Origin: Candidatus Parcubacteria bacterium
GTDB lineage: Bacteria > Patescibacteriota > Patescibacteriia > UBA1558 > GWA2-36-10
NCBI GenBank assembly: GCA_030632225.1
Contig: DAOVVF010000006.1
Coordinates: 1-11,699 of the forward strand
Direction of reading: 5' to 3'
DNA: 11,699 nt
Both the position numbers and the translations under genes were made by a program. The notes below the pieces were generated by a model, which was not told the origin of the DNA, made no database searches, and saw nothing but the letters and a program-made list of their open reading frames with translations. Shown in pieces: positions 3,169 through 10,858 of this stretch; the first letter of the stretch is position 1; each line of letters begins with the position of its first letter.

Positions 3169-3198
3169 TTGACAAACTAGGGCTTTTTGGAATATAAT
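3169..3198 (+). promoter_or_regulatory. Promoter of the 102-aa cassette gene
   Basis: Perfect -35 TTGACA (3169-3174) and perfect -10 TATAAT (3193-3198) with an 18-bp spacer. Transcription should start near 3205, giving a leader of about 80 nt before the ATG at 3287. Confidence 0.8.
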
Positions 3199-10256: not shown

Positions 10257-10289
10257 AAAATAAAACCCCTGTCTGTTGACAGAGGTTTT
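10257..10289 (-). terminator. Intrinsic terminator of small RNA 1
   Basis: AAAACCTCTGTC (10289-10278) pairs with GACAGGGGTTTT (10273-10262) over a 4-nt loop: 12 pairs with one U-G. On the minus strand the T-rich tail TTTTATTTT follows. It separates the small RNA from ruvA, although partial readthrough could feed the ruvA operon. Confidence 0.85.
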
Positions 10290-10472
10290 GTAGAAAGGGA
10301 GTCACTGTAAGTAAGCGTAGGACTCTTATCCACACTCAGGATGTGGTCAGCAGCGTGGAGGATGATACCCCTAATTTTGCATCGGCTGCAAATGCCTAAG
10401 AATCCTATTGGCCCGCCGCTCCAGCGATTTAATTATAATTAATACTTACAGTGACTCCGAAAAGAACTTATT
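10257..10472 (-). ncRNA. Structured small RNA 1 (about 215 nt), 6S-like layout, identity not established
   Basis: A promoter (10479-10507) and a terminator (10257-10289) define a minus-strand transcript without a plausible coding frame. Its ends form a perfect 16-bp helix, 10443-10458 with 10298-10313. Inside: an AU-rich 5' strand (10421-10442), a 7-bp helix (10414-10420 with 10349-10355), an apical hairpin with a 6-bp stem (10376-10392), and on the 3' side a hairpin CCACA/UGUGG (10330-10346). A closing stem, a central bubble and an irregular upper arm of this size recall 6S RNA, but I see no diagnostic sequence. tmRNA, RNase P RNA and SRP RNA signatures are absent. It could also act as the leader of the ruvA operon. 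The higher GC content than its surroundings fits a stable RNA. Confidence 0.65.
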
Positions 10473-10478
10473 AAATAT

Positions 10479-10507
10479 ATTTTAGATTAGACAAGCTCTT
10501 TTGTCAA
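10479..10507 (-). promoter_or_regulatory. Promoter of small RNA 1
   Basis: On the minus strand: perfect TTGACA (10507-10502), a 17-bp spacer, and TAAAAT (10484-10479). Predicted start is near 10472. The -35 sits in the T-rich tail of the terminator of small RNA 2, so the two units are packed end to end. Confidence 0.78.
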
Positions 10508-10535
10508 ACAAAAACTCCTACCTAGGTAGGAGTTT
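10504..10535 (-). terminator. Intrinsic terminator of small RNA 2
   Basis: A perfect palindrome with 10-bp arms, AAACTCCTAC/GTAGGAGTTT (10512-10535), around CTAG. On the minus strand TTTTTGTTT follows (part of the run lies in the stem). On the plus strand the following bases are A-rich, so it works leftward only. Confidence 0.85.
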
Positions 10536-10682
10536 AAAAAAGATCGCTGTGAAGCGTGAAAGGATCCTCGGCCCCTGAGCTGTGGACTAAAGACAACGGG
10601 TGGGCGAAAGGTAGGATGAAGTATGTTTATCCATGATGACACTCCACAGCAATCTTAAGCTTTATCAAAGAACTAGATGGTT
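10504..10682 (-). ncRNA. Structured small RNA 2 (about 175 nt), unassigned
   Basis: Bounded by a strong promoter (10689-10717) and a terminator (10504-10535). The 5' strand 10656-10639 pairs with 10557-10540 to form a continuous 18-bp helix with three G-U pairs, enclosing about 80 nt. The 5' arm GCUGUGGA (10650-10643) can also pair perfectly with an internal UCCACAGC (10586-10579), so two mutually exclusive folds are possible. Smaller elements inside are a GGAU/AUCC hairpin and a CUC/GAG hairpin around AGGGGCC. No start codon with a sensible frame is seen. I could not match it to 6S, SRP, tmRNA or RNase P RNA. The orientation rests on promoter and terminator, which agree. Confidence 0.65.
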
Positions 10683-10688
10683 GTTTAT

Positions 10689-10717
10689 ATTATATACCTG
10701 TAGAAAACTTAAGTCAA
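10689..10717 (-). promoter_or_regulatory. Promoter of small RNA 2
   Basis: On the minus strand: TTGACT (10717-10712), a 17-bp spacer, and perfect TATAAT (10694-10689). Predicted start is near 10682. It begins directly after the terminator of small RNA 3. Confidence 0.8.
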
Positions 10718-10718
10718 A

Positions 10719-10759
10719 ATAACCAAAAAACACCCCAATCGCGCAAGGATGTCTTTTGG
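10719..10759 (-). terminator. Intrinsic terminator of small RNA 3
   Basis: CCAAAAGACATCCT (10759-10746) can pair with GGGGTGTTTTTTGG (10736-10723) over a 9-nt loop: 14 continuous pairs, three or four of them G-U. The inner GC-rich part followed by T6 is the functional terminator form. Confidence 0.7.
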
Positions 10760-10823
10760 TCTACCTTTGTGTATAAGGCAAATTAATGTTTTTTATCTTA
10801 AAAACCCTAAGGTTTTCAAGGTA
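10719..10823 (-). ncRNA. Small RNA 3 (about 105 nt), unassigned
   Basis: Predicted from a promoter (10830-10858) and a terminator (10719-10759), with no coding frame. The transcript would begin with a hairpin of 10 pairs, CTTGAAAACC with GGTTTTTAAG around UUAG (10820-10797). An A-rich single strand, a small CCUU/AAGG hairpin (within 10762-10780) and the terminator follow. An exact DnaA-box sequence lies on its 3' side at 10768-10776. It is less structured than RNAs 1 and 2. It may instead be an untranslated tail or a decoy-type RNA. Confidence rests on the promoter-terminator pair only. Confidence 0.5.
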
Positions 10824-10829
10824 TTTTTT

Positions 10830-10858
10830 ATTATAGCAAATTTTAGACAAGTTGGCAA
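10830..10858 (-). promoter_or_regulatory. Promoter of small RNA 3
   Basis: On the minus strand: TTGCCA (10858-10853), a 17-bp spacer, and perfect TATAAT (10835-10830). Predicted start is near 10823, a few bases before the first hairpin. Confidence 0.7.

Follow-up and report, generated by a model that had tools for sequence, protein, structure and literature searches.

The gap between dnaN and ruvA in the stretch of DNA analyzed here (hereinafter the window: 11,699 nucleotides, contig C45 of a 727-kb draft genome, G000, in 161 contigs) carries on its minus strand three units arranged head to tail, each consisting of a promoter and a terminator-type hairpin. Comparative analysis establishes the first of these, unit 1, as a family-conserved predicted RNA (RNA1) of roughly 105–120 nt that has a promoter of the extended −10 type and three hairpins, the third being a terminator that exposes a GCGCGA loop. 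We favor a reading of the locus as an array of three RNA genes, in which unit 1 would act in trans and would be linked to DnaA in some genera, and assign this reading as a whole a probability of about 0.5.

Anatomy of the dnaN–ruvA Gap

The gap spans 693 nt and is flanked by genes whose products are identified by Pfam as the DNA polymerase III beta subunit (truncated at the edge of the window) and as RuvA; further along the window, Pfam recognizes a FemAB-type protein, a nucleotidyl transferase, a Mur ligase and RpoB. A sequence-only reading of this DNA had proposed three tandem small-RNA units in the gap, and its anatomical claims are borne out. There is no ORF of at least 60 aa within 10257–10858, and the three −35/−10 pairs that it had named are all present on the minus strand where it had placed them (Table 1). 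Each is a sigma-70-type promoter with 11/12 matches and a 17-nt spacer, and each is followed by a terminator-type hairpin with a T-rich tail. The tight packing also proves correct, with promoter 2 beginning directly 3′ of terminator 1 and promoter 3 lying within the T-rich tail of terminator 2.

Table 1. Predicted features of the dnaN–ruvA gap, in order of transcription (window coordinates)
Feature	Position	Strand	Description and basis
Promoter of unit 1	10830–10858	−	TTGCCA-17-TATAAT, TGC before −10; promoter scan
Unit 1 (RNA1), ~104 nt	10720–10823	−	ends inferred from promoter and terminator
RNA1 hairpin SL1	10797–10820	−	MFE fold
RNA1 hairpin SL2	10762–10780	−	contains TTATACACA at 10776–10768; MFE fold
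RNA1 hairpin SL3 (terminator 1)	about 10721–10761	−	T-rich tail; loop GCGCGA at 10744–10739; hairpin scan and fold
Promoter of unit 2	10689–10717	−	TTGACT-17-TATAAT; promoter scan
Unit 2 (RNA2), ~175 nt	10508–10682	−	closing helix 10654–10639 with 10557–10542; predicted ends
Terminator of unit 2	10512–10535	−	T-rich tail; hairpin scans
Promoter of unit 3	10479–10507	−	TTGACA-17-TAAAAT; promoter scan
Unit 3 (RNA3), ~215 nt	10258–10472	−	closing helix 10458–10443 with 10313–10298; predicted ends
Terminator of unit 3	10263–10288	−	T-rich tail; hairpin scan
Exact TTATCCACA inside unit 3	10326–10334	+	word search

Promoters with at least 11/12 matches number three on the transcript strand of the gap and none on the other strand. 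Across 2000 dinucleotide shuffles of the gap the mean is 0.012, with a single shuffle reaching two and none reaching three. Over the whole window, a simple scan finds no excess of either terminator-like sites (5 versus 6.1 in shuffles) or weak promoter-like sites (38 versus 46.3); the departure from chance sits in the strong sites and not in the weak promoter- or terminator-like ones. This simple scan reports only the middle hairpin as a minus-strand terminator, all three being found by a separate hairpin scan. The folding energies of units 3, 2 and 1 (z = −6.7, −5.4 and −4.5) each beat all 200 shuffles, and since low z-scores are common and unspecific along the dnaN gaps of the family, they constitute weak evidence for the units. 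The three predicted transcripts would be independent of one another. As a claim of three independent RNA genes, the earlier proposal is supported in part: unit 1 has conservation behind it, units 2 and 3 only their anatomy. Elsewhere in the window (3169–3198, plus strand), a perfect consensus promoter, TTGACA-18-TATAAT (12/12), lies in the stretch that separates rpoB from the next long gene on the minus strand.

Distribution of Unit 1

Regions following dnaN were taken from 20 relatives of the window genome; the named relatives (eight loci with a related dnaN) are metagenome-assembled or uncultured, and most are Parcubacteria or Patescibacteria. At E ≤ 0.01, nhmmer recovers unit 1 on the same strand as dnaN in 14 of the 20, which together with the window makes 15 of 21 family genomes. 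When the gap was compared with 35 relatives by blastn, the matches were mostly AT-rich noise, with only the part around query positions 109–154, corresponding to unit 1, recurring. A covariance model (R1), built from 11 of the 15 sequences and covering the SL2 region and SL3 with only SL3 paired, scores 58.8–75.4 bits at 13 loci, including G019 and G020, both outside the model. Two further sequences outside the model, from G013 and G002, score 39.4 and 36.9 bits, and because background matches reach about 30–40 bits, it is their position, promoter and loop that assign them to the family. Searching for the loop plus a U-tract recovers 14 of the 15 unit 1 loci, missing that of G005. Among the family genomes without unit 1, dnaN and ruvA are spaced by merely 36, 5 and 5 nt in G001, G008 and G009, respectively, and G011 has a 2-kb gap devoid of the unit; G014 and G017, whose contigs end within or soon after dnaN, were also counted as lacking it.

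Searched against 285 class genomes, the R1 model finds matches in 167, most of the inspected loci being plain A/T-rich terminators. Of 22 inspected loci (L114–L135), one has a GCGCGA terminator loop: L127, from a genome of another family (G104), is a minus-strand terminator with 17 possible pairs in a 2.4-kb locus containing neither dnaN nor ruvA. One other of the 22, the R1 match at the dnaN end in G139 (L129), has no GCGCGA loop and was taken as an ordinary dnaN terminator. Among 14 order-mates, dnaN was found in 12, and no GCGCGA terminator hairpin occurs within about 1.5 kb on either side of it. Phage and plasmid collections yield matches at chance level only, and an exact pattern scan of viral sequences yields none. 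GCGCGA-loop terminators after an apparent protein gene, with no RNA1 there, are also found at two loci from one genus (L106 in G007, contig C4; L107 in G019, contig C26), and this loop may be significant outside RNA1 too.

Other structured stretches near dnaN were seen by eye in two order-mates and in G005. In the order-mates, G023 (L202) and G026 (L201), a short promoter–hairpin–U-tract stretch unlike RNA1 in sequence stands just after dnaN. In G005 (L064), a GC-rich structured stretch preceded by TTGACA-17-TAATAT lies between dnaN and RNA1 on the strand opposite to dnaN. In G015, a 62-bp stretch with the RNA1 3′ end is present twice with 92% identity, once in the RNA1 after dnaN (contig C40, L189:1806–1867) and once on another contig directly before ruvA (C60, L190:5430–5491), a pattern resembling that left by a DNA insertion which hit the 3′ end of RNA1 and duplicated its target site.

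Structure of Unit 1 and Its Invariant Loop

All 15 unit 1 homologues are preceded by a promoter with TGn before TATAAT and a −35 element at 17 nt. Cut at their own TATAAT, present in all 15, they measure 102–122 nt. When each is folded separately, 13 of the 15 display SL1, SL2 and SL3, similarly placed and in an unchanged order, with SL2 absent from the fold in G013 and G002, which belong to one genus. In hand-placed stems, 65/65 SL2 cells are paired across 13 sequences (two left out), with two-sided changes at all five pairs; for the outer SL1 stem the figure is 55/60 across 10 sequences (five left out), though hand-placing favors pairing. RNAalifold on a MAFFT alignment of ten sequences retains SL3 only, with 2/13 pairs changed on both sides. 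The sequence-only reading had named stem conservation and covariation in relatives as a check on all three units; unit 1 shows such conservation, with 15 of 21 genomes sharing its position, its promoter and its fold, and with both-sided changes in SL2, whereas units 2 and 3, for which no sequence relative was found, do not.

The SL3 loop hexamer GCGCGA is identical in all 15 homologues, and its CGCGA portion is unpaired at P ≥ 0.91 in every one of them. Two copies of the loop can base-pair with each other (at −11.1 kcal/mol for G000 and G007, −8.3 for G004), which makes RNA1 dimers conceivable. On the strength of these conserved features, we regard unit 1 as very probably a genuine RNA gene.

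DnaA-Box-Like Words and the Origin Setting

The word TTATCCACA, with at most one mismatch, is found within the 25 nt upstream of the unit 1 −35 element at 6 of the 15 loci (G003, G007, G010, G016, G018 and G019, representing three genera), always 3–8 nt from the −35 and in both orientations. Counted in the same way, 14 of fifteen control windows give 0 and the remaining one gives 2. Among all 1680 permutations of the word, the true one ranks first with 6 loci, followed by its own one-base shift with 5 and the rest with at most 2; the word had been spotted by eye before this statistical test. Nine homologues, including the window's own unit 1, have no upstream box within one mismatch; in the window's gap, the box-like TTATACACA lies inside unit 1 and an exact TTATCCACA inside unit 3 (Table 1). 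Where the box exists, we consider control of unit 1 by DnaA to be about an even bet.

The DnaA C-terminal domain is encoded just upstream of dnaN in all four other family genomes tested, and the window's own draft has no DnaA match. In G016, a single contig of 1,035 kb of which 400 kb were sampled, the GC skew turns from negative to positive at about 210 kb, stays positive as far as 734 kb and is negative again from 780 kb, with a local cumulative minimum at 209228. Four TTATCCACA-like words cluster at 210037–210112 between dnaA and dnaN, and two exact ones lie at 211669–211687. Unit 1 of this genome (model match 207361–207418) is on the leading strand about 2.6 kb from the box cluster; adjacency of unit 1 to the origin was found for G016 only. 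The gap itself was dropped as a candidate oriC, as in G016 both the skew minimum and the box cluster fall outside it.

Units 2 and 3

Units 2 and 3 have no sequence relative among 380 class genomes: of the eight matches, one is the window and the other seven extend over 23–44 nt. Both have long inverted ends, of 16 bp in each. In G012 (L054:1068–1288), unit 1 is followed by a second unit with a 10/12 promoter, a closed structure and a terminator. The closing helices of this unit and of units 2 and 3 agree in purine/pyrimidine pattern over ten columns, equaled by 44 of 200,000 shuffled triples, this resemblance being a post hoc observation. Whole alignments of the three are not significant (128, 427 and 641 of 1000 shuffles reach the score), and the strict closing-helix pattern recovers from 520 kb only the three loci from which it was derived. 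Kinship among the three is suggestive only. Units 2 and 3 are probably of one structural type, and their anatomy makes it likely that they are transcribed RNA genes. Inside unit 2 (10634–10587, minus strand), there is a 15-codon ATG ORF with GGAG upstream, which could specify a small peptide or be due to chance.

Searches for Known RNA Families and for Targets

The Rfam search named by the sequence-only reading (Rfam 15) finds nothing in the window at E ≤ 1; for ten of the 20 relatives' loci it gives six weak sub-cut-off matches, none overlapping RNA1. RNase P RNA was covered by these Rfam scans. 6S RNA (RF00013) has no match in the window and none above the cut-off in 35 genomes, and ARAGORN detects no gene at all in the window, tmRNA included. 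Signal recognition particle (SRP) RNA was rejected likewise, with neither covariance model (RF00169, RF01854) matching in any of the 21 family genomes; the M domain of its partner Ffh (PF02978) is found in 0/21 family genomes as against 14/14 controls, and SRP absence in Parcubacteria is already reported in PMC4508563.

For pairing with target mRNAs, among them those of cell-cycle regulators as in a CcnA-like RNA, the search used the loop complement alone. Around gene starts in a 400-kb sample of G016 this word is in no excess over control words, and TCGCGC is absent from five dnaA loci. One candidate target in G016 lies in a repeat.

Interpretation and Alternatives

In the reading that we favor, unit 1 would be the old, family-conserved member of a three-gene array, whose RNA acts in trans with the SL3 loop as its contact surface, through target pairing, loop–loop contact with itself, or a protein. 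In several genera, DnaA would act on the unit 1 promoter via the box just upstream of the −35, tying the output of the unit to replication initiation, and units 2 and 3 would have been added to that slot in a lineage-specific manner. That the RNA works in trans by way of the SL3 loop is a tentative proposal, which we place slightly short of even odds. Counting against the favored reading are the nine homologues with no upstream box, the restriction of the box to three genera, the lack of excess of the loop complement, the GCGCGA-loop terminators at places without RNA1, the recovery of SL3 alone by RNAalifold and the want of relatives for units 2 and 3. The fuller proposition, that unit 1 is an origin-side, DnaA-controlled RNA through which replication initiation is coupled to how other genes are expressed, and that units 2 and 3 are a second type of structured RNA expanded locally within the same array, is unlikely as a package. 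The main competitor casts unit 1 as a constitutive RNA with a structural or protein-binding role, be it as a scaffold, a decoy or an RNP component, and devoid of a DnaA link, the boxes reflecting origin-related DnaA binding. A fixed loop on variable stems is what a protein site would be expected to produce, and this explanation fits the loop nearly as well as a trans-acting RNA does. It also accommodates the missing upstream box in 9 of 15 homologues, the loop-complement trials in G016 and at five dnaA loci that brought up no target, and the origin-proximal position of unit 1 in G016. It does not, however, readily account for boxes held at a narrow distance from the −35 and absent from 14 of 15 neighboring windows, and we judge it somewhat improbable.

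Units 2 and 3 might alternatively be palindromic DNA elements (MITE-like or other repeats) that settled in a variable slot and carry promoters by chance. Their 16-bp inverted ends, their lack of relatives in the family, the varying content of the slot among relatives and the G015 duplication, which points to insertions here, are all in keeping with such an origin; however, blastn finds no second copy in the window's own genome, and each unit combines an 11/12 promoter with an in-register terminator, leaving this explanation distinctly unlikely. As cis-acting leaders or attenuators of ruvA, the same units would have the right direction, a unit 3 terminator ending some 25–30 nt before the start codon, and the short ORF of unit 2. 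Yet a promoter-like pair (10/12) stands 8–9 nt before ruvA in G016, G007, G020, G004 and G005 (the window has no such pair just before ruvA), dnaN and ruvA are separated by only 5–36 nt in three relatives, and no Rfam leader or riboswitch matches in the window. The presence of ORFs between unit 1 and ruvA in several relatives, some on the other strand, speaks against a leader too, and a role of this kind appears very improbable.

Significance and Comparison with Known Systems

The unit 1 family beside dnaN spans ten genera of one family; its promoter is strong, its loop invariant, and in three genera a DnaA-box-like site adjoins the −35. It would be a new Rfam entry, and it is a tangible candidate for a regulatory RNA linked to replication, in bacteria mostly beyond genetic handling. 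Among the top-ranked matches of larger literature result sets, none deals with a small RNA next to dnaN in Parcubacteria.

Tandem intergenic sRNA genes, short and each with its own promoter and terminator, are known in the streptococcal csRNAs; by description, these appear to differ from the units reported here in their regulator and pairing motif. In Bacillus subtilis, an antisense RNA overlapping the dnaA leader is reported (PMC12112137). It resembles unit 1 as a small RNA at the dnaA–dnaN locus; in contrast, unit 1 is located past dnaN, and no ORF of at least 60 aa overlaps it in the window. A further likeness is to CcnA of Caulobacter crescentus, presented in PMC8959179 as a 182-nt ncRNA at the replication origin beside hemE, presumably CtrA-activated, with three weak DnaA boxes in ccnA according to a figure legend and a proposed link to the cell cycle. 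RNA1, as a predicted small noncoding RNA with DnaA-box-like words in or near the gene and, in G016, a place beside the origin, shares a likeness of kind only: by description, RNA1 follows dnaN in another phylum, whereas ccnA is at the origin beside hemE. CcnA shows that a ncRNA encoded at the origin can have a part in the cell cycle (PMC8959179).
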